Virus record (IMG/VR): IMGVR_UViG_3300042290_000495
Span: 1 to 31,457 of that record
Source: a virus
Direction: 5' to 3' (one strand)
DNA length: 31,457 bases
Shown here: piece after piece, positions 14,379 to 31,364 of the stretch
Layout of the letters: each line of letters opens with the position of its first letter
Numbering within the stretch: the first letter of the stretch is position 1
Made by a program: the position numbers and the translations under genes
The notes under the pieces: model-generated
The model's input: only the letters and a program-made list of their open reading frames with translations
The model's database searches: none
What the model was told of the DNA's origin: nothing

Positions 14379-15041
14379 TTATATGTTGTTTACTTTAATT
14401 ATGTTTACTGGGATTGTAATTCTAGCACCAGAATCTCTACCAATTACAGTTATTGTAGTTGATAATTGAGTAGCTGAAGTACCAAATAAGGTATTAACTG
14501 TAGTACCGGTTAATGTAAATGAAGTTCCAAGAACTGATTTACTTAATTTAGTACCAGTAGTTGTATTAGCATCTGTTGTAGGAGTAGTAGTTGTAACTCC
14601 AACTCCACTAAAATCAGATAATAATCTAATATCTGAAATTGTTGCTGTGTATCCGTTAGCTTCAAATGTTGAAGTAGCTCCTAAATAATTTAATGTTTGA
14701 GGAGTAATTGTTAATGAAGCACCTTGACGTAATGATATTGTGTTGTAACCTAATGAAATAACAGGTAATTTTGAAGTACCACGAGGTAAAGTAACCAATT
14801 TATAACGCATGATTTGCGCCTCATCAGGAAATGCTTCTAACATAGGCATAGCTTCAATAGCTTCACCATAAAATGCTGATCCAGACGGGTGAGTAGGATT
14901 GTATAGAGTATAATCGATTTCATCATCAGCTAATGAAAATTGGGTAATTTGGAAAGAACCGTCATTTCTAGCTAGTAACTCACGTCCCTTTTTAGTTAAT
15001 ATAGCATCTACGGTTACGGTAGTGTTATTTAAAATTGCCAT
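14379..15041 (-). CDS. Tail-fibre/baseplate-associated structural protein
   Basis: A 220-residue protein. The N-terminal ~80 residues (TVTVDAILTKKGRELLAR, FQITQFSLADDEIDYTLYNP) match a family common in large myoviruses, where it heads tail-fibre or tail-associated proteins. The remainder is β-rich and Thr-rich, ending in a probable Ig-like strand pattern (TITVIGRDSGARITIPVNIIKV). This gene follows a 50-nt AT-only gap, the longest inside the structural cassette. That gap holds TATATATATTTATA, a candidate late promoter element (see the findings). It probably belongs to the distal tail or fibre attachment site. Confidence 0.8.
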   Translation of the reverse strand: MAILNNTTVTVDAILTKKGRELLARNDGSFQITQFSLADDEIDYTLYNPTHPSGSAFYGEAIEAMPMLEAFPDEAQIMRYKLVTLPRGTSKLPVISLGYNTISLRQGASLTITPQTLNYLGATSTFEANGYTATISDIRLLSDFSGVGVTTTTPTTDANTTTGTKLSKSVLGTSFTLTGTTVNTLFGTSATQLSTTITVIGRDSGARITIPVNIIKVNNI

Positions 15042-15060: not shown

Positions 15061-15070
15061 TATAAATATA
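15061..15070 (-). promoter_or_regulatory. Candidate late promoter element (ATATTTATA)
   Basis: In the 50-nt gap before the 220-residue structural gene the minus strand reads TATATTTATACG, about 20-29 nt before the ATG. The same ATATTTATA core lies upstream of several other structural genes. No TTG lies at a matching -33 distance and the TTTCC box is absent, so this would be a different promoter class from the early-type ones, possibly read with the phage sigma factor. It could also simply be AT-rich leader sequence. Confidence 0.35.
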
Positions 15071-18000: not shown

Positions 18001-19750
18001 ATGTTTCAGCTAATAAATCTTTTTTAGGTACGTTATTTAAATAACTACTTGTTACTGAAAAGTCATCTGTAAATAATGTACTTCCATTATTTGATCCTCC
18101 AATATAGTCTTCAAAGTCATTATCTCCTTTACTGTTATATAATTTAACACCTAATGAACGTAAAGCATCATATACTATATCTTTAGATACACCTTTTTCA
18201 AGATTATTATCAGCATTATATAATTCATTAATTGATGTAATGTAAATCCATATATTATCAAAATAATGACCAATCATATCAGTAAAATCATAATATGGCT
18301 GATAATTTAATGGATCATTCTTTACATAAGCTGGAGCGATATTATATAAATGATCTAAATTATTTTCATCATATGATAATGCTGATGAAGTATAATTAGT
18401 ATACCAAGTAGATGCACTAGGAGAGGATAATATGACATAACCACTAGAAATAGCATTATTAAAAGTTAAAGATAAAGTATTAGTTCCTATAACAGAAGAT
18501 TGAGTTGTTAATAACTGCCCAGATCCTGAATATATGGCTATTACTGTTGGGGTTTCATTTAAACTATGAGTGAAATTCCATATGGATGATGTTGTTAGTT
18601 GATAAAATCGTTTGTTAATGAATTTATTTTTATATGGTTTAATATTATTAGTTTTAGGCCAAGTATATGAACTTGATTCAAAATATAAATAATTTTCAAA
18701 TCCATCAAAATTTTTAGTAATATTATCTATTTTTAACTTAATAGACGCTGTTTCTTCATTTTTTAATATAGAATTAGATAATAATAAAGTACTAATATCA
18801 GTATCATAACTTTCAATTTGATTTATTTTATTAAAAAATATTTCTAAACGTTTTTTAGCTGAGCTAAAATGGATGAAATTTTCAAATGAAGTATAATCTA
18901 TATTTAAATCATATGAGTTATCATTCATATAATTTAATACTTGACGATAAGATGAACCAGTCAACGAAGATACTAATGATGAATAATTTTCATACTTAGT
19001 TCCTAAATTCTGTTTTATATCTATATCAATATCAAAATTTGGACCTTTTAATTGAGGAGTAGGGGCAGGAATTATTGAGGTGTCTAAGTTTATATTAAAG
19101 ACATAAGGTTCAATAATTTCTTCTGTTACCCATGCTGTTGATTTTAAATCAACATTTAACGGTAAAGGTTCATATAATTTTAATAATATACTAGGAGTTT
19201 GAGAGTTTTCATCTATTATAGCATTAACTATTAATATTTGAGTATTATTAGATTGGTTTAATAAAAATGATTTTTGTTCTACTGAATTGGTTAATGAATC
19301 AATTATAGAATTTCCCCTAGTAACTAAATTATCTGATGTTATATCAGCTGAATTAATTCTTATTTCAGTACGATCATCAGATATTTCTTGGATAAATAAA
19401 TTTATAGAAGGGTCTAATGAAGTGGATTTAAAGAAATTATATTGAGATAAAAACTCACCTGAAATATAATTTAGGGATTGGATATCATTAACAGGATCTA
19501 TTTCTATTACAGGAATACTTCCATTAGGATTTAAACTAAAATTATTAGCAGATTTGAAATTTTTATAATCTAAATTAGAATATACTAAATTTTGATTCAG
19601 ATCATATATAAATAATTCTATATAATCTTTACTATACCCAAACGTTTGATTAATGGTTTGAGTATTTAAAAGATTTTGGTCTTCATTTTTTATTCTAGAT
19701 ATTCTTTGAATATCATTTATATTCCCTATAATTTTAATATTATCGGCCAT
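15092..19750 (-). CDS. Very large baseplate/tail structural protein
   Basis: A 1552-residue protein rich in Asn, Ser, Tyr, Ile and Lys, with no signal peptide. Visible landmarks are an N-terminal region rich in YIELFIYDLNQNLVYSN-type strands; a compact β-domain at about 390-450 (IWNFTHSLNETPTVIAIYSGSG...GYVILSS) resembling small domains repeatedly inserted in phage tail proteins; and a block just after it (LDHLYNIAPAYVKNDP, MIGHYFDNIWIYITSI) typical of large myovirus structural proteins. Its place two genes after gp6 is where T4 encodes gp7, another long wedge protein, so it may be a functional counterpart. Sequence likeness to gp7 is not evident to me. The ATG overlaps the previous stop as TAATG. 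Confidence 0.75.
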   Translation of the reverse strand: MADNIKIIGNINDIQRISRIKNEDQNLLNTQTINQTFGYSKDYIELFIYDLNQNLVYSNLDYKNFKSANNFSLNPNGSIPVIEIDPVNDIQSLNYISGEFLSQYNFFKSTSLDPSINLFIQEISDDRTEIRINSADITSDNLVTRGNSIIDSLTNSVEQKSFLLNQSNNTQILIVNAIIDENSQTPSILLKLYEPLPLNVDLKSTAWVTEEIIEPYVFNINLDTSIIPAPTPQLKGPNFDIDIDIKQNLGTKYENYSSLVSSLTGSSYRQVLNYMNDNSYDLNIDYTSFENFIHFSSAKKRLEIFFNKINQIESYDTDISTLLLSNSILKNEETASIKLKIDNITKNFDGFENYLYFESSSYTWPKTNNIKPYKNKFINKRFYQLTTSSIWNFTHSLNETPTVIAIYSGSGQLLTTQSSVIGTNTLSLTFNNAISSGYVILSSPSASTWYTNYTSSALSYDENNLDHLYNIAPAYVKNDPLNYQPYYDFTDMIGHYFDNIWIYITSINELYNADNNLEKGVSKDIVYDALRSLGVKLYNSKGDNDFEDYIGGSNNGSTLFTDDFSVTSSYLNNVPKKDLLAETFKRIYHNIPLLSKTKGTSTGLQELITTFGVTSSIFSPNEFGGSTKKNQLKGYDNDKITIQNNTITGSVLSPFISLQQPSTSSSDFTSTDLHFVDLSFSPQTELNSRISASVAVTYPTFSLDEYIGDPRLMASSSYDDLINQQNYFTSASSAISGSAKRLDYKGFIELVKYFDNSLFKMLKDFVPARTNALTGITIKSPVLERNKVPVYHPKVTKETTYDAKYSGPTITEDKTYYYNKVTGSKSSFYTGEFTGSYININDTFENSNPNPYLHPTNSININEFNHTDFNVTLNNVSSSVLSNSRKKLEKIYVTLNNNVFLSSSFNEYTSDAELQESNLSLRGFQNSRYDGTKASSLKLNTYSSASGTYPGDSSYGKTAVIEHNTRKLGLFYQISNNAYFNFPFRNNVFIKYLVDENGNLTELNKKNKNWNEVQNIFKAGESLTVSQFDSSRNSTTTNQSQKSTDGSKPIYDSGYSYFPIMYASSSDSKLYFNYTGDTKSKLFKIKNSGGFIYGDSTLKYPITNGDKIHKIFQNLTDTFDTTFNDGNIFYKVDNNNLNTFSTYSIQETSNQRFNAKFDVEVSFPSINLSGSFTFNINKVGGTQNPIATETKFIASGKSTIKYTNYKYFQVDFSPTFLFIDVETKIYNTNGTLSPTVLAPGTQLVLISAAENINSPGCDLINPITLYMTDEDYYGIFNPSNLSPGCESTYQYFNAEVYDAPTSKLSDTLIFNVSTNYTPFAVGDKISYEFITGSGGFNTNNFTASIKPYTSNPERGFFSNELAEYQVGNNPFATSSFNNAPAPFISGSLNNNLIFNSSLSYFKDYLFMPSGSAPITKNNLYNTYGEVEYNFSPKFGDVILIYYNGGYFESTISNVFTDSTSKKLNLTLSSELPSNLNKPAYNETDITKFLILSKVNDETNLILTFDKKPGDTSLGFIIPNNLHPSVLANIDVITKEVKQKLIDLGTTNGGGTF

Positions 19751-24949: not shown

Positions 24950-26118
24950 ATTGTATATACTTTTTTAGATTTAATACCTTCTAATTGTTTAATTATAGCA
25001 TCCATAGAACCTTCTAATGAACTTGCAGGAGCTGAAATTGAAATTAATGGGCGGGATGAATTATCAATAGCATTATTTAATGCTGAGGAGAATGTTTTTA
25101 AATTAGTTAATAAATCATTAAGTAAAGTTATAGTTTTATCACCTAATAATACAGGTTCTGTTGGAAGTTTTCCATTATTACTATTTAATCCTAAAAATAT
25201 ATATTGTCCACCATTTATCAATACATTTTGGGTAGCAGATATAAAAGTTGTATTTTTTGACGATATACTTGTATTTGTTTTAGAATATAATAATATTTCG
25301 TCTTTATTTGAATTAATTAATATACGATTTGCACTTAATATAACTTGAGAATCATAATATTTTTCAGGAGATTGTGAAGCAAATAAAGGATTGACTATAT
25401 TATTATCTATCTGGATAGGGATAGCTTGAGTTGATGTTAAATATAATGATGATTTATCATTATTTATATCTTCAACATATGGTTTTCCCTTTAAATCAGG
25501 AGTAAAATTATATCCATTAACTAATAATGTTATAGGATCTCCATTTTTGCCTGTTATACTCCAAAAATTTTCAAGATTATTTTCATTTAATGTACTACTA
25601 AATCTTAAACCATTTCCCCATCGTCCATATAATATATGATCGCCTTCGAATGGAAATAAATTACCTACAGTTGAACTTTCAGTAATACTTTTACCTAAAT
25701 TAGCAGATCCATCTTCTTTTATATTATATACTGCTTGGGAATTATGATTAGTATTATTATATAAATTAATAGGACTTAAATAATATAATTGTTTTTTATT
25801 TTGTATGTCTGAAGAATCAGAAGATGGTAAATCAAATAATAAAATTATCTCCTCATTTAGTGGGAGATAACTATGATAAGGAAATAAGGGTTTAGCAAAA
25901 TTATATGATTTTAAAATATCATTATTTATTTCTGTTGGAGGGGATGTTTTAGGATCAATATAATAAGTATTTCCTATACTACTCCAATCAGTAAACCCAG
26001 CAGAATTAATATCAATTACTACATGGAATACCCTTCCCGTAGTAGAAGATTGAGATAAACTCCCACCAGTTGAACCTAATGTATTATAAAATGAACCTTG
26101 ATTATTCCTTACTATCAT
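24946..26118 (-). CDS. OB-fold baseplate hub/spike-like protein (gp5-like)
   Basis: A 390-residue protein. Residues about 28-135 look like an OB-fold of the gp5/VgrG type: RVFHVVIDIN as first strand, then PYHSYLPLNEEIILLFDLPSS, where the LPLNEEI turn corresponds to the P-x-G-D-E of the family. A later segment (about 285-340: DEILLYSKTNTSISSKNTTFISATQNVLINGGQYIFLG, then EPVLLGDKTI) has the short repeating strands of a β-helical spike stem. A C-terminal helix region (LLTNLKTFSSALNNAID) follows. It probably forms the central spike or hub of the baseplate. No lysozyme motif is seen, so it is not a full T4 gp5. It begins 17 nt inside the preceding gene. Confidence 0.7.
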   Translation of the reverse strand: MIVRNNQGSFYNTLGSTGGSLSQSSTTGRVFHVVIDINSAGFTDWSSIGNTYYIDPKTSPPTEINNDILKSYNFAKPLFPYHSYLPLNEEIILLFDLPSSDSSDIQNKKQLYYLSPINLYNNTNHNSQAVYNIKEDGSANLGKSITESSTVGNLFPFEGDHILYGRWGNGLRFSSTLNENNLENFWSITGKNGDPITLLVNGYNFTPDLKGKPYVEDINNDKSSLYLTSTQAIPIQIDNNIVNPLFASQSPEKYYDSQVILSANRILINSNKDEILLYSKTNTSISSKNTTFISATQNVLINGGQYIFLGLNSNNGKLPTEPVLLGDKTITLLNDLLTNLKTFSSALNNAIDNSSRPLISISAPASSLEGSMDAIIKQLEGIKSKKVYTI

Positions 26119-26467
26119 TTATTAGGAGGGGTTTATCTATTTCAGCACCAATTTTTTGAACTTCACCTCTTATTTGATCTAATTCAGCTTCGCTTAAAAA
26201 ATCATCAGAATTACCTCCACTATTATTCATAGCACGTTGTACAATTCCTGCCATTTTAATTAATGAATCATCATTTTTAACAGATACGTCAAGATATTCT
26301 TTAATTAAGGGAACAACCATAAGAGCTGATTGAGTATCAGTTACAAGTGGTTTAAGGCTAGAAATAAGATCTTTTATTTGTTTTTCTTTTTCTTTAGAAT
26401 TATCATAGATATTTTTTAAAATATCGGAAAATGATTTATTACCAAAGATTTTTTGTTCAAAATCCAT
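26102..26467 (-). CDS. Small helical protein opening the structural cassette
   Basis: A 121-residue, mostly helical, acidic protein (FGNKSFSDILKNIYDNSKEKE, LIKEYLDVSVKNDDSLIKM, LSEAELDQIRGEVQKIGAE). Family not recognised. It is the first gene after the sigma-factor gene and overlaps the spike-like gene by 17 nt, so it is probably a hub-associated virion or assembly protein. A TATATTTATA element lies 14-23 nt before its ATG. Confidence 0.65.
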   Translation of the reverse strand: MDFEQKIFGNKSFSDILKNIYDNSKEKEKQIKDLISSLKPLVTDTQSALMVVPLIKEYLDVSVKNDDSLIKMAGIVQRAMNNSGGNSDDFLSEAELDQIRGEVQKIGAEIDKPLLINDSKE

Positions 26468-26480
26468 AATATTTATTTAT

Positions 26481-26490
26481 TATAAATATA
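26481..26490 (-). promoter_or_regulatory. Candidate late promoter element before the baseplate cassette
   Basis: The minus strand reads AATATATTTATAATAAATAAATATT between the end of the sigma-factor gene and the ATG at 26467. A TTG lies 16 nt upstream of TATATTTA, which is shorter than the 19-20 nt spacing of the clear promoters, and there is no TTTCC box. Its position at the sigma-factor/virion gene boundary makes it the most likely place for a late promoter. Confidence 0.35.
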
Positions 26491-28311: not shown

Positions 28312-28503
28312 TTAAACGTATGTAGAAAACTCATCGTGTTCTAAAGAAACAGTTGAGCGTAAATCCTCAATTTTTTCCTTCATATCAGATAATGTTTGCA
28401 TTACTTCTTGAAGATTTTCACCTCGTGAAAGTTGGAAATCAATTGTACGATTTAGATTTTCTAATTGATTTATTTTATTTAAGACTTGATCCTTATACCT
28501 CAT
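28312..28503 (-). CDS. Small coiled-coil protein
   Basis: A 63-residue protein made almost wholly of two amphipathic helices (VLNKINQLENLNRTIDFQL and LQEVMQTLSDMKEKIEDLRS), which predicts a helical hairpin or an oligomeric coiled coil. It has no catalytic or metal-binding residues. Its ATG overlaps the stop of a 28-residue upstream reading frame as ATGA, which suggests translational coupling with that short frame. Function unknown. Confidence 0.7.
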   Translation of the reverse strand: MRYKDQVLNKINQLENLNRTIDFQLSRGENLQEVMQTLSDMKEKIEDLRSTVSLEHDEFSTYV

Positions 28504-28622: not shown

Positions 28623-28653
28623 TAAATATACGTGAGAAAGTTCCGACGCCAAA
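28623..28653 (-). promoter_or_regulatory. Bacteroidota-type promoter TTTG-N19-TATATTTA
   Basis: On the minus strand, TTTG at 28653-28650 is followed after 19 nt by TATATTTA at 28630-28623. A TTTCT lies 4 nt before the -7 box, which matches the TTTCC box of the other promoters here. It would drive the 28-residue frame, the coiled-coil gene and possibly the HD-hydrolase and sigma-factor genes. An AACGTT site abuts the -7 box. Confidence 0.6.
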
Positions 28654-28938
28654 TTATTTTTTAGATTTTTTTAGTAATTTTTTAGATTCCCTAATCATTT
28701 CTTGTAAATCGATCGAACGAAATGGAAATGTAAAATATTTTTTATTTTCAGCATTTTTCAAAATATCGTCCTCTTGTGGATCATCAGTAATATAGAATGT
28801 AAACTCGGCCTTCCCAGGCATTGCATCCAGTAAATCGGTTGAAGAAATCTCACGATCCAAACCGTTATCTTTAAATAAATTGTTTACACCGTTAACAAAA
28901 GCTGCTTTATTAGCATCTTTAAATAGATATGTTGCCAT
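28654..28938 (-). CDS. Small protein of unknown function
   Basis: A 94-residue soluble protein with mixed α/β character. It begins ATYLFKDANKAAFVNGVNNLF, has a strand pair (KAEFTFYITDDP, KKYFTFPFRS) and ends in a Lys-rich helix (MIRESKKLLKKSKK). No catalytic motif or Cys cluster is seen and the family is not recognised. A TATATTTATTATTG sequence lies about 25-40 nt before its ATG without a good -33 partner. It is set between the GIY-YIG gene and the coiled-coil gene in the accessory region. Confidence 0.65.
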   Translation of the reverse strand: MATYLFKDANKAAFVNGVNNLFKDNGLDREISSTDLLDAMPGKAEFTFYITDDPQEDDILKNAENKKYFTFPFRSIDLQEMIRESKKLLKKSKK

Positions 28939-28982
28939 ATTAAAATTTTATTTGTTCAATAATAAATATATAAATTGATAAT

Positions 28983-29453
28983 TTACGCGAGATCCTCGTT
29001 AGGTATGCCTAAAACTTTAAAAATCACGTCACGCGCAACTATAAAATTTACCGCAAAACCTTCGCGATTATCCTCTACTCTATAATCTGAAAGTAAATCG
29101 TGAATTTCTTGTTCGGCTAAATAAGGTTCCTGGGTAAACCAAAAATCACGTATTTGCCATGGTGTAATCACACCCGTAGCAGAGTTAATTTCGTTTAAAC
29201 GATCGGCAACCGAACGCTCAGTGAATCCAATCTTAAAAATACCGGGCACCGACGTATTTTGTAAAATATAGATGTGACCCGTAGAAAATGGTGATTTTTT
29301 AGAACCATATTTCTTTTTAAAATAGCGCACATTCCATGCGTTTTGTCCATCATCAACAAAATCGTAACCTCTAGCTGATCGAACGTTATCTCGCACTTGT
29401 TGAGCGTTCATCTCGTAAAATTCGGACGTGTCCTTACCTGTTAAATTTTCCAT
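28983..29453 (-). CDS. T5orf172/MUG113-type GIY-YIG domain protein
   Basis: A 156-residue protein. After an N-terminal ~55 residues of unassigned sequence, residues 59-140 form a T5orf172-type GIY-YIG domain: GHIYIL at 59-64 and FKIGFT at 73-78 are the signature strands, RLNEINSATGV holds the conserved Arg, and PYLAEQEIHDLLSDYRVE contains the Glu-containing helix. The end (REGFAVNFIVARDVIFKVL) is the usual closing helix. Proteins of this family cleave DNA or are fused to DNA-binding domains; here a free-standing nuclease is likely. It has its own strong promoter 20-50 nt upstream. Unlike the genes to its left, it has many GC-containing codons. Confidence 0.82.
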   Translation of the reverse strand: MENLTGKDTSEFYEMNAQQVRDNVRSARGYDFVDDGQNAWNVRYFKKKYGSKKSPFSTGHIYILQNTSVPGIFKIGFTERSVADRLNEINSATGVITPWQIRDFWFTQEPYLAEQEIHDLLSDYRVEDNREGFAVNFIVARDVIFKVLGIPNEDLA

Positions 29454-29471
29454 TTTAAATTAATTATCTAG

Positions 29472-29501
29472 CAAATATAATTAGGAAACTCGTATATACA
29501 A
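29472..29501 (-). promoter_or_regulatory. Bacteroidota-type promoter TTG-N19-TATATTTG
   Basis: The best promoter in the window and an exact match to the Bacteroidota consensus. On the minus strand TTG (29501-29499) is followed after 19 nt by TATATTTG (29479-29472), with TTTCC 4 nt before the -7 box. It lies 19 nt before the ATG of the GIY-YIG gene. Its -33 end is part of one arm of the 13-bp inverted repeat. Confidence 0.75.
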
Positions 29502-29590
29502 TTGGGTTTACCAAAAATTTTATAGAGGTTAAAATTGCGGGTCCCGGATTTTGAATGCAAAAGGGTTATTTTGAAATTTGTATATACGAG
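29489..29590. repeat. 13-bp perfect inverted repeat CTCGTATATACAA
   Basis: CTCGTATATACAA at 29489-29501 and its exact reverse complement at 29578-29590, with 76 bp between. The left arm covers the -33 box of the promoter before the GIY-YIG gene. Each arm contains the palindrome GTATATAC, and a similar CGTATATACG occurs at 28521-28530. Paired binding sites for a dimeric regulator, or DNA looping, are plausible. Confidence 0.6.
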
Positions 29591-29599
29591 GGTTGGGGT

Positions 29600-29782
29600 G
29601 TAAAATCGTATACGTGTTGAGAGTGCGTGGGGTTAAGACACGCGCCTACCCGCCGCGCATAGGGACCGCGGCCAGCGTGGGAGCAATCCGCACACGAGTC
29701 GCGGTCGACCCGCTATCGTCCGTCTCTTTTAAGATTTTTTTGACAACCGCGTCTCTTGCGATTTTTTTGTGACACGCGCAGG
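29600..29782. other. GC-rich gene-free island with repeats and a GC hairpin
   Basis: The region 29454-29782 (329 bp) contains no gene I can support. Its left part carries the promoter and inverted repeat. About 29620-29725 is far richer in G+C than the rest of the window. It has a GCCGCG/CGCGGC hairpin (29652-29657 with 29667-29672), a GGTCGACC palindrome near 29703, a GACACGCGC direct repeat (29637-29645 and 29771-29779), and an imperfect tandem pair built on CGTCTCTT...GATTTTTTTG (29721-29745 and 29750-29773). It may be a replication origin, a structured RNA or imported DNA. A 46-codon frame without a start codon (29646-29786) also runs through it on the minus strand. Confidence 0.5.
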
Positions 29783-29935
29783 CTACTTAACCTTTGTGTA
29801 ATACGTCACATTTCCATTATCATCCATGTGAAACGCGTGAACATGGGCTTCAATTTGATATTTGGCTACCCTATGGAATGAACTGAATTGAATCGCACGA
29901 TATGATCTATGTTTGGATGATTTTAATTTGGTCAT
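29783..29935 (-). CDS. Small basic protein of unknown function
   Basis: A 50-residue protein from ATG at 29935 to TAG at 29783. It is basic and His/Tyr-rich: MTKLKSSKHRSYRAIQFSSF, then HRVAKYQIEAHVHAF and a β-strand pair with DDNGNVTYYTKVK at the end. That final pattern (strand, D-D-N-G-N turn, strand) looks like real protein rather than chance. It lies 49 nt after the AT-hook gene, beyond a hairpin terminator, with no clear promoter of the local class. The family is not recognised. Confidence 0.6.
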   Translation of the reverse strand: MTKLKSSKHRSYRAIQFSSFHRVAKYQIEAHVHAFHMDDNGNVTYYTKVK

Positions 29936-29976
29936 GTGTTATTGGGTTGAGTGTGATTACTTAGGCAGATTAAATT

Positions 29977-30000
29977 GGTAATGGCTATTCAGCCATTACC
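29977..30000 (-). terminator. Candidate intrinsic terminator after the AT-hook gene
   Basis: A perfect 10-bp stem (GGTAATGGCT / AGCCATTACC) with a 4-nt loop. On the minus strand it begins within the last codons of the AT-hook gene, holds that gene's TAG near the loop, and is followed by AATTTAAT, a weak U-rich tract. It fits a terminator but the T-run is poor, so it could instead stabilise the mRNA 3' end. Confidence 0.5.
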
Positions 30001-30374
30001 TTTGCTTTCACTTTGCTCTTAGCCTTAGTAGGCACTTCAATCACAATCGCTTTAGGACGTCCTAACTTTAATGTCCCGTTTGCACGACGAGCTTCTAAAT
30101 CAGCTATACGTTTTGCTCTAGCGCTTTCTGGATTGACTGGACGTCCACGCTTAATATCTAGACCCTGTTGGATCTTGAAATTACGCTCATACATTTTCAT
30201 TTGATTAGCTGAACCTGGAACTGATGGACGACCACGCTTAATTAAACCTGCTTCACGCTTTGCTTGAATTTCAGCTAATCGAATTTGTCTTGCTGAAGTT
30301 GGATTAACTGGACGACCTAATTTTTCACCTGTAGCTGAAGCGTGTTTTGCGATTGTGTTCTTTGAATTTTTCAT
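29985..30374 (-). CDS. AT-hook repeat DNA-binding protein
   Basis: A 129-residue very basic protein built of three repeats of 28-29 residues plus a fourth partial one. Each starts with an AT-hook-like core: KLGRPVNP (about 18), KRGRPSVP (about 46), KRGRPVNP (about 75) and KLGRPKA (about 103). The core is followed by a charged helix such as SARQIRLAEIQAKREAG. The end is Lys/Val-rich (KAKSKVKAKV). The Gly-Arg-Pro cores would insert in the minor groove of A/T-rich DNA, which suits this genome. It may be a nucleoid-like protein or transcription modulator. It is preceded by its own promoter and followed by a hairpin. Hook cores are a short motif, so specificity is unknown. Confidence 0.8.
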   Translation of the reverse strand: MKNSKNTIAKHASATGEKLGRPVNPTSARQIRLAEIQAKREAGLIKRGRPSVPGSANQMKMYERNFKIQQGLDIKRGRPVNPESARAKRIADLEARRANGTLKLGRPKAIVIEVPTKAKSKVKAKVMAE

Positions 30375-30416
30375 AATACTTTTTTGTTTGTTAGTTATTA
30401 ATTATTTATTATGTTG

Positions 30417-30448
30417 TAAATGTAACCTGGAAACTTATTTAAGCCTAC
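30417..30448 (-). promoter_or_regulatory. Promoter GTAG-N20-TACATTTA with TTTCC box
   Basis: Minus-strand GTAG (30448-30445), 20-nt spacer, then TACATTTA (30424-30417), with TTTCC 4 nt before the -7 box. It lies 42 nt before the AT-hook ATG. The -33 box departs from TTTG and includes the TAG stop of the upstream membrane-protein gene. Confidence 0.55.
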
Positions 30449-30651
30449 TTATCTAAATTAACTACACCGTAAACTGTTACTGCGAATCCAAACACTAGAA
30501 CGACTACCCAATCAATGTCTTGGTTATATAGGAACCCATAACATGCAATTGCTGATACTGTTACTCCTAATTTCATGATTAATGCAGCACCGTTTTTCTT
30601 CTTTTGAGCTTGCTTACGTGCGATTTCTTGGATTTGGTCTTGATTTAACAT
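30445..30651 (-). CDS. Small two-helix membrane protein
   Basis: A 68-residue protein. A polar, basic N-terminus (NQDQIQEIARKQAQKKKNG) precedes two transmembrane helices, about 22-41 (AALIMKLGVTVSAIACYGFL) and 47-65 (DWVVVLVFGFAVTVYGVVN), separated by a short NQDID loop. The positive-inside rule places both ends in the cytoplasm. Function unknown; such small early proteins often alter the host envelope or exclude other phages. It is preceded by a TTTCC-box promoter. Confidence 0.7.
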   Translation of the reverse strand: MLNQDQIQEIARKQAQKKKNGAALIMKLGVTVSAIACYGFLYNQDIDWVVVLVFGFAVTVYGVVNLDK

Positions 30652-30689
30652 ATCTTGTTTATTTATTAGTTATACGTTTTATTATGAGG

Positions 30690-30721
30690 TAAATGTAATC
30701 TGGAAACGGGTTAATCCCTAA
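30690..30721 (-). promoter_or_regulatory. Promoter TTAG-N20-TACATTTA with TTTCC box
   Basis: Minus-strand TTAG (30721-30718), 20-nt spacer, TACATTTA (30697-30690), followed by CC, with TTTCC 4 nt before the -7 box. It lies 38 nt before the ATG of the 68-residue membrane protein. The -33 box covers the TAG stop of the 55-residue gene. Confidence 0.6.
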
Positions 30722-30885
30722 TCAGCCCATTCGGCTATGTACTTTACTTCCTCAGGTGTTAGGTTATCCACCATCTCATCTAAGCGATCCGCCTTAGCAA
30801 TGGTTGTGTAACCGATCTGATCAATGTCTGAATTGATGTCCCACTGTAATTTCTTGAATTCGATGCACTTTTGAATGTTAAGCAT
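30718..30885 (-). CDS. Small acidic helical protein
   Basis: A 55-residue protein from ATG at 30885 to TAG at 30718. It is acidic and mostly helical: MLNIQKCIEFKKLQWDINSD, then IAKADRLDEMVDNL and TPEEVKYIAEWAD. No domain is recognised. It has its own TTTCC-box promoter 25 nt upstream and its stop codon lies within the -33 box of the next promoter. Codons are balanced and unlike chance AT-rich sequence. Confidence 0.6.
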   Translation of the reverse strand: MLNIQKCIEFKKLQWDINSDIDQIGYTTIAKADRLDEMVDNLTPEEVKYIAEWAD

Positions 30886-30909
30886 GTTCGTTTGTTTTTA
30901 TGTACAGGG

Positions 30910-30941
30910 TAAATATAGTGAGGAAATTATTCGACTTCAAA
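30910..30941 (-). promoter_or_regulatory. Promoter TTTG-N20-TATATTTA with TTTCC box
   Basis: Minus-strand TTTG (30941-30938), 20-nt spacer, TATATTTA (30917-30910) followed by CCC, with TTTCC 4 nt before the -7 box. It lies 24 nt before the ATG of the 55-residue gene, in the 3' end of the preceding 53-residue gene. The leader CTGTACATAAAAACAAA is almost identical to that of the 53-residue gene. Confidence 0.7.
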
Positions 30942-31088
30942 TTCAGCTACTTCCATCTCCCATCCACCACTTTCTTCTTGATACTGTTTACAGTATGCTT
31001 CAGCGGCCTCCCGGGTAGTAAATACCTTACTACTAGACGTATCCCATAATCCGTAATCACCGTATTCGAATGTTAAATATACTTTCAT
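30927..31088 (-). CDS. Small acidic protein of unknown function
   Basis: A 53-residue protein from ATG at 31088 to TAA at 30927. It looks like a small β-β-α domain: MKVYLTFEYGDYGLWDTSSS, KVFTTREAAEAYCKQYQEES, then a GGWEMEVAEFEVE strand. The layout, in which a strand is followed by a TREAAEAYCKQ helix and a final strand, resembles small phage proteins of unknown function. It has its own TTTCC-box promoter and ends within the promoter of the next gene. Confidence 0.65.
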   Translation of the reverse strand: MKVYLTFEYGDYGLWDTSSSKVFTTREAAEAYCKQYQEESGGWEMEVAEFEVE

Positions 31089-31112
31089 GTTCTTTTGTTT
31101 TTATGTACAGGG

Positions 31113-31144
31113 TAAAGTTAATTAGGAAACTCGTTACTTACTAA
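31113..31144 (-). promoter_or_regulatory. Promoter TTAG-N20-TAACTTTA with TTTCC box
   Basis: Minus-strand TTAG (31144-31141), 20-nt spacer, TAACTTTA (31120-31113) followed by CCC, with TTTCC 4 nt before the -7 box. It lies 24 nt before the ATG of the 53-residue gene. The -33 box lies within the last codons of the preceding gene. Confidence 0.6.
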
Positions 31145-31298
31145 CATCATAATAAGTTATACCATTAATTAAGATAAAGTTATCGTGTTTAACTGTACAG
31201 TAACTGTAATGTACATACTTAACACCATTAATTTTCCTAACTGGTATTAAATTTACATTTGAATTTTTAATGTAGGGGTTCTTAATTGTAGCTGACAT
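31134..31298 (-). CDS. Small basic protein of unknown function
   Basis: A 54-residue protein from ATG at 31298 to TAA at 31134. It is basic and β-rich: MSATIKNPYIKNSNVNLIPV, RKINGVKYVHYSYCTV, then HDNFILINGITYYDVSK. Repeated strand-turn pairs with N-G turns suggest a small β-barrel or an OB/SH3-like fold. The family is not recognised. It has its own TTTCC-box promoter 34 nt upstream. Confidence 0.6.
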   Translation of the reverse strand: MSATIKNPYIKNSNVNLIPVRKINGVKYVHYSYCTVKHDNFILINGITYYDVSK

Positions 31299-31332
31299 AT
31301 TTTGTTTGTTTAGTTAATTATTTATTACATGG

Positions 31333-31364
31333 TAAACGTAATTAGGAAAGGTTAGTTATTCAAA
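31333..31364 (-). promoter_or_regulatory. Promoter TTTG-N20-TACGTTTA with TTTCC box
   Basis: Minus-strand TTTG (31364-31361), 20-nt spacer, TACGTTTA (31340-31333) followed by CC, with TTTCC 4 nt before the -7 box. It lies 34 nt before the ATG of the 54-residue gene and its -33 box covers the last codons of the gene entering at the right edge. Confidence 0.65.

Follow-up and report, generated by a model that had tools for sequence, protein, structure and literature searches.

The 31,457-base IMG/VR virus record IMGVR_UViG_3300042290_000495, which was analyzed over its whole length and is called the window here, carries a class of putative promoters in which a TTTCY box (TTTCC or TTTCT) lies at a fixed distance upstream of the -7 box. 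Comparison of the window with related viral contigs shows this box to be a core part of the predicted promoters: it keeps one place and one orientation, it is conserved as strongly as the -7 box, it is inherited throughout one phage clade, and it is absent from a second, late-looking promoter class. Positions are numbered so that the T of the -7 box is -12, after PMC6847099.

The source of the window is an Immutovirus-like myovirus. The window encodes T4-type baseplate wedge proteins, a primase and an exonuclease, and its nearest cultured relatives are Flavobacterium phages, namely immuto (160 kb), with which it shares 46% identity in the baseplate wedge protein (full length) and 46% in the primase. 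The stretch of small genes at the right end of the window corresponds by position to 66-77 kb of immuto, where a T5orf172 gene and a phosphohydrolase gene are preceded by genes of similarly small size. A nucleotide search of this small-gene region against phage records returned no match. For comparison, 42 loci that encode the baseplate wedge protein were taken from viral contigs; the larger contigs of the clade include G001 (122 kb), G002 (108 kb) and G024 (139 kb). Contigs G020, G021 and G026 have no baseplate gene and seem to derive from different regions of this kind of genome. The group of viruses that uses TTTCY probably infects Bacteroidota.

Promoter sites in the window and their common anatomy

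The initial annotation had reported seven promoters with TTTCC, or once TTTCT, 4 nucleotides (nt) upstream of a -7 box. All seven -7 boxes lie on the minus strand where they had been placed, and the upstream box, TTTCC at six sites and TTTCT at the seventh (28639), is separated from the -7 box by exactly 4 nt in every case. When the window is searched with TTTCYNNNNTANNTTTR (TTTCY-N4-TANNTTTR), the seven matches obtained are these same seven sites, all on the minus strand; shuffled sequences give a mean of 0.55 matches and none of 100 shuffles reaches 7. The pattern TANNTTTR by itself is not enriched in the window (175 matches versus 165 expected), and thus the signal that defines the class is carried by the TTTCY box.

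The TWG reported at -33 is likewise found at all seven sites, with a spacer of 20 nt at the five rightmost (TTTG, TTAG, TTTG, TTAG and GTAG) and of 19 nt at 29472 and 28623. Promoter A (31333..31364) combines TTTG at 31361-31364, TTTCC at 31345-31349 and the -7 box TACGTTTA at 31333-31340, and it precedes the open reading frame (ORF) 31134-31298. Promoter B (31113..31144) has TTTCC at 31125-31129 and TAACTTTA at 31113-31120 before ORF 30927-31088, and promoter C (30910..30941) has TTTCC at 30922-30926 and TATATTTA at 30910-30917 before ORF 30718-30885. At promoter D (30690..30721), the TTAG at 30718-30721 is followed by TTTCC at 30702-30706 and the -7 box TACATTTA, upstream of ORF 30445-30651, and at promoter E (30417..30448), the GTAG at 30445-30448 is followed by TTTCC at 30429-30433 and the same -7 box, upstream of the gene for a GRP-repeat protein (29985-30374). 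Promoter F (29472..29502) consists of ATTG, TTTCC at 29484-29488 and TATATTTG, the single -7 box of the seven that ends in G at -5, and precedes the T5orf172 gene at 28983-29453. Promoter G (28623..28653) consists of TTTG, TTTCT at 28635-28639 and TATATTTA; the first ORF of at least 35 amino acids begins 119 nt downstream (28312-28503), and similar sites occupy the corresponding place in contigs G003, G030 and G001. Their position, orientation, conservation and gene context all argue that these seven sites are promoters.

The observation that -33 boxes overlap the ends of upstream genes also holds. The TAG at -33 of promoters D and E is the stop codon of ORFs 30718-30885 and 30445-30651, respectively, the -33 boxes of promoters A, B and C fall within the last codons of the upstream gene, and that of promoter G adjoins a stop codon. 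The extra CC or CA noted after the -7 box is present at the five rightmost sites, but it is not a feature of the clade, in which position -4 is A at 48, C at 32, T at 26 and G at 7 of 113 sites.

These 113 nonredundant sites, from which sequences more than 75% identical had been removed, were selected on TTTCY and the -7 core and were used to describe the anatomy of the class. The architecture is T[TA]GG near -33, a spacer of 20 nt (sometimes 19), TTTC[CT] at -21 to -17, T-N-A-T at -16 to -13, and TA[TC][AC]TTTA at -12 to -5. Preferences at positions that played no part in the selection are T at -35, T or A at -34, G at -33 and -32, T at -16, A at -14, T at -13, T or C at -10, A or C at -9, and A at -5; G is rare at -10 (1/113) and -9 (10/113). 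The letter at -5 is A at 108 sites and G at 5. When the distance from TTG or TAG to the -7 box is plotted, there is a sharp peak at spacers of 20 (51/113) and 19 (13/113), with 1 to 7 sites at most other offsets. A conserved TGTA, CATA or TATA, part of a TA-rich stretch, follows the -7 box, where transcription should start; in primary-sigma promoters of Bacteroidota, the start lies 4-5 nt after this box. The consensus of the initial annotation stands as regards the extra fixed box, with the letters of the box corrected to TTTCY and those of the -7 box to TAHHTTTA rather than the host's TAHHTTTG. Its description of the box as an addition to the general Bacteroidota consensus is not borne out: this is the form of one phage clade, and relatives carry other spacer motifs. 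Packing against upstream genes is common in the class: at 50 of the 113 sites, no more than 10 nt separate the box from the end of an ORF upstream, and 11 of 30 TAG-type -33 boxes in the clade are stop codons of open frames.

Recurrence of the class and its variation among relatives

The class recurs through related phage contigs, which satisfies the refutation test set by the initial annotation (enrichment of the box elsewhere), and reversed controls give zero matches. Matches to TTTCCNNNNTANNTTTR on the forward and reverse strands number 1 and 18 in G001 and 1 and 10 in G002. For TTTCY with A at -5, the corresponding counts are 1 and 37 in G024, 0 and 19 in G020, 19 and 0 in G021, 1 and 16 in G026, and 12 and 2 in G030. 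Matches on the plus strand, such as that at 18345 of G001, which is antisense over the start of a T5orf172-type gene, were taken as coincidence.

The same result is obtained when the box is left out of the selection. At sites chosen by T[AT]G, a spacer of 19-20 nt, TANNTTTR and a nearby ORF, TTTCC with up to two mismatches is found at a gap of 4 nt in 16 of 22 cases in G001 and 15 of 19 in G002. Among intergenic -7 boxes that precede ORFs, TTTCY with up to one mismatch peaks at a gap of 4 nt (30/45 in G001, 22/34 in G002 and 28/47 in G024), and the smaller count at a gap of 3 nt is what one-base-shifted matches would be expected to give. The intergenic -7 boxes upstream of ORFs in G001 include 28 with an exact TTTCY, 4 with one mismatch and 1 with a TTG at -33 and no box, and those of immuto include 24 with a TTG at -33 and no box. 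At orthologous promoters, where the box was unselected in the second genome, at least four of the five box letters are kept in 226 of 230 comparisons. The identity per position is 0.97, 0.88, 1.00 and 0.99 from -21 to -18 and 0.72 at -17, and most positions in the upstream flank have values of 0.4-0.6.

The TTTCY class sits before small ORFans and before genes for a single-stranded DNA-binding protein, FolE, a PD-(D/E)XK nuclease, DUF932 and T5orf172 proteins. A second class, TATATTTATA, lacks TTTCY and precedes the genes for the portal, tail tube, baseplate hub, tape measure, head completion and other structural proteins; it also precedes structural genes across the family and some genes of immuto, and it has no -33 box. 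In the window, such sites occur on the minus strand at 15061..15070, before a structural gene (14379-15041) whose product is a homolog of immuto gp107 (70%), and at 26481..26490, before the gene at 26102-26467. A few sites bear both motifs, for instance that of the portal gene in G026. This split suggests a division between early and late expression, in which the small genes served by TTTCY are probably early and TATATTTATA is a probable late promoter.

Relatives whose marker proteins are about 44-60% identical keep the scaffold (TTTGG or TAGG at -33, a spacer of about 20 nt, and TATATTTA) but not TTTCY. The letters that adjoin their -7 box are GTCG (G033, 17 sites), ATGT (G027, L273, L276, L158, L301 and L337), TTCG (L291, L294, L314 and L377), TTCN (immuto) or AACT (L330, L373 and L375). 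TTTCC was also sought as a promoter class in immuto and is absent there. On a tree of the neighboring phosphohydrolase, the TTTCY phages form one clade with support of 100/99, and the motif labels require 7 changes as compared with 14.4 when shuffled, with one origin of TTTCY. Since one or two TTTCT-type promoters are present in phages that use ATGT and GTCG, TTTCY may have begun as a minor variant that then spread. With other letters near this place in related viruses, the spacer seems to hold a promoter code that varies from one phage lineage to the next. The cassette promoters of immuto (L080), at about 67.6-75 kb of NC_055915.1, are very uniform (AGTTG...TATATTTAGGTATCAATAATTAAAA), and stem-loops seen by eye between -33 and -7 in several of them suggest terminator-promoter units.

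Recognition of the box

We consider it probable that TTTCY is an early-promoter core element contacted directly by the holoenzyme that contains the host primary sigma factor, and we favor this reading over a phage-encoded reader. Host RNA polymerase with its primary sigma factor (sigma-A or sigma-ABfr) would start transcription at the TTTCY promoters, and the box would offer the enzyme a further point of contact immediately before the -7 box, in the same register as the extended -10 and spacer elements known from other bacteria. The -33 box is often weak or doubles as a stop codon, for which this contact would compensate, and a strong promoter could thereby fit a gap of tens of bases between small genes; the sister lineages would have met the same problem with other letters beside the -7 box. 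Given that almost no -33/-7 promoter without TTTCY is found in the clade contigs, TTTCY promoters must supply the first transcripts, unless a virion factor intervenes or an unsampled region differs, and it is this need that leads us to favor contact by the host holoenzyme. Sigma-70 region 2 (PF04542) was detected in none of seven records (six clade contigs and immuto), although the control genomes were positive; the contigs are incomplete, covering between them 62 of 86 selected immuto genes, and distant sigma factors could be missed. Promoters of F. johnsoniae have TAHHTTTG, a -33 box that is barely visible even genome-wide, and AT-rich motifs at -18 and -28, of which the one centered at -18 is more pronounced than the -33 box (PMC6847099). 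Thus, TTTCY falls on a stretch that is already special in a Bacteroidota host, and the host polymerase may read the -18 stretch.

Several observations weigh against contact by the host holoenzyme. TTTCY at a gap of 4 nt is not enriched in 12 Bacteroidota genomes, which need not include a host of the clade (352 matches versus 406 in reversed controls); with the gap changed to 7 nt, the same genomes give 446 versus 379. The full pattern occurs in 257 Gb of bacterial and archaeal genomes in 67 scattered stretches with one match each. These scans argue against TTTCY as a general host regulatory signal, and a contact by host polymerase is still compatible with them, since most genomic matches are not promoters. 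In addition, the -7 box ends in A as opposed to the host's near-invariant G, about 43% of the nonredundant TTTCY sites have no recognizable TWG at -33 (some of these may not be promoters), and lineage-specific motifs are what a co-evolving phage factor would produce. The lack of enrichment in host genomes together with the A at -5 would also agree with modification of the polymerase by a phage protein.

Such a protein, phage-encoded or carried in the virion, would redirect host RNA polymerase to TTTCY as a functional analog of T4 MotA/AsiA, and the motifs of the different lineages would follow its divergence; we regard this as possible but doubtful. Points in its favor, besides the absence of host enrichment and the final A, are that the motif is invariant within the clade and differs in each sister lineage, with the few label changes and single origin described above, and that the cassettes of the clade, and those of several phages with TAGG at -33, encode an AT-hook-like protein with GRP repeats. 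That protein is also present in L377, which uses TTCG, and so it does not track the box. Neither do the records searched hold a recognizable sigma region 2, nor is one phage confined to one motif, as L276 has both ATGT and NTTCT-TTAT promoters, and, barring a factor brought in by the virion, immediate-early genes need a promoter that is active ahead of any phage protein synthesis. A bolder form of the idea is a fast-evolving promoter code, in which each Immutovirus-like lineage would have switched essentially its whole early set to a motif of its own (TTTCY, ATGT, GTCG, TTCG, TTCN or AACT). A phage factor specific to the lineage would read this motif, steer the unusual RNA polymerase of Bacteroidota and discriminate against the promoters of the host; this bolder form we think rather unlikely.

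The box might instead be mainly the U-rich tail of the upstream gene's intrinsic terminator, with its adjacency to a promoter fortuitous. Perfect or near-perfect inverted repeats adjoin the box at 28 of 113 sites versus 6.6 in shuffles (for example GGGGCTTCGGCCCC-TTTTCC in G001), and by eye the intergenic units of immuto show stem-loops before the -7 box. Because such repeats adjoin the box at about a quarter of the sites, some units probably combine a terminator and a promoter. However, the other three quarters have TTTC at the same distance from the -7 box without a stem, TTTCY being equally fixed there, a U-tract requires neither the C at -18 found in effectively all orthologs nor an exact spacing from the -7 box, and a terminator scan of the window found no stem adjoining any of the seven boxes, all of which makes this explanation very unlikely. 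Recent duplication of one cassette, rather than selection on the box, could also produce similar sites, given that small-gene cassettes could multiply by recombination and that promoter units in immuto are nearly identical over tens of bases. Yet the flanks of the 113 distinct sites carry near-zero information around a fixed box (TTTCY having been selected there), and orthologous pairs, in which the box is unselected in the second genome, keep it far better than the flanks; duplication is thus largely refuted and highly improbable. Equally hard to credit is a reading in which a phage repressor or activator uses the box as its operator, so that the box overlaps the promoters but is no core element of them. 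Fixation of TTTCY in one promoter class and its absence from the late-looking class would fit an operator, but operators usually tolerate other spacings, one spacing and one orientation dominate here, and TTTCY has no dyad symmetry.

The GRP-repeat protein encoded on the minus strand at 29985..30374, in the cassette region, is 129 amino acids long, has no Pfam match, and is conserved in the TTTCY clade. Proteins with [RK]xGRP repeats, AT-hook-like and 107-151 amino acids long, occur in the cassettes of the window, L330, L365 and L371-L375, and several of the phages outside the TTTCY clade that encode one have TAGG, not TTTGG, at -33. As a lead only, the protein is a candidate DNA-binding partner; a role as the reader of TTTCY is unsupported, as it also occurs with AACT, ATCT and TTCG promoters. 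Near its gene, on the minus strand at 29572-29783, lies a noncoding element of about 200 nt that is visibly richer in GC than the genome, which is AT-rich, and whose identity between clade members is 76-92%. Its fold has a z-score of -2.2, a few of its pairs change on both sides and stay paired, and it has no Rfam match; it may be a structured RNA or else a DNA element, an origin for example. In L266 (Microcystis phage Mel-JY01, PP395634.1), whose recorded host is the cyanobacterium Microcystis elabens and whose baseplate is related to that of the window, several genes lie behind Bacteroidota-type TTG-N20-TAnnTTTG promoters. The recorded host may be wrong, the true one being, for example, a Bacteroidota companion in the culture.

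Relation to known promoter systems

The scaffold of the class is the known Bacteroidota primary-sigma promoter (TTTG at -33 and TAnnTTTG at -7; sigma-ABfr/sigma-A), with which it shares TTG or TAG at -33 at a distance of 19-20 nt, the TA..TTT core, and the avoidance of G at -10 and -9. It differs in having A rather than G at -5, in the added invariant TTTCY at -21 to -17, and in a -33 box that is often TAG. A limited search of the open-access literature found neither the fixed TTTCY box, the A at -5 and the lineage-specific alternatives nor papers on early promoters of Bacteroidota phages. Bacteroidota recognize their promoters through an unusual primary sigma factor. Each genome of these phages supplies dozens of natural promoters with a -33 box, a -7 box and a third element in exact register, and their relatives supply several natural alternatives to that element, so that spacer contacts in Bacteroidota become directly testable. 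TTTCY promoters are also candidate strong, compact promoters for Bacteroidota hosts, and the two classes would allow early-type and late-type genes of uncultured phages to be called from sequence alone.

The early cassette promoters of immuto (Immutovirus) resemble the TTTCY class in their place in the genome, in the use of one promoter per small gene, and in the TTG at -33, the spacer of 20 nt, and TATATTTA with its final A. They differ by a constant AGTTG at -33 and TTCN at -16 to -13, and they have no TTTCY at -21 to -17. In sigma-70 promoters, the extended -10 (TRTGn) and spacer (Z) elements provide a contact upstream of the -10 box that can offset a weak distal box. TTTCY would be comparable as a sequence-specific contact upstream of the -7 box, but its letters and its place differ, and the clade has T-N-A-T at -16 to -13 in place of the TG of an extended -10 element. 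The sister motif ATGT (G027), which occurs in sister lineages only, puts TG at -15/-14, like the classical form. The second class, TATATTTATA, is reminiscent of the T4 late box, TATAAATA. In T4 middle promoters, a MotA box near -30 replaces the -35 box and is combined with a host-like -10 box, and the phage itself encodes MotA and AsiA. The TTTCY class is similar in joining an extra phage-specific box to a host-like -10 region, and it differs from T4 middle promoters in that its box lies at -21 to -17 and the TWG at -33 is kept at over half of the sites.

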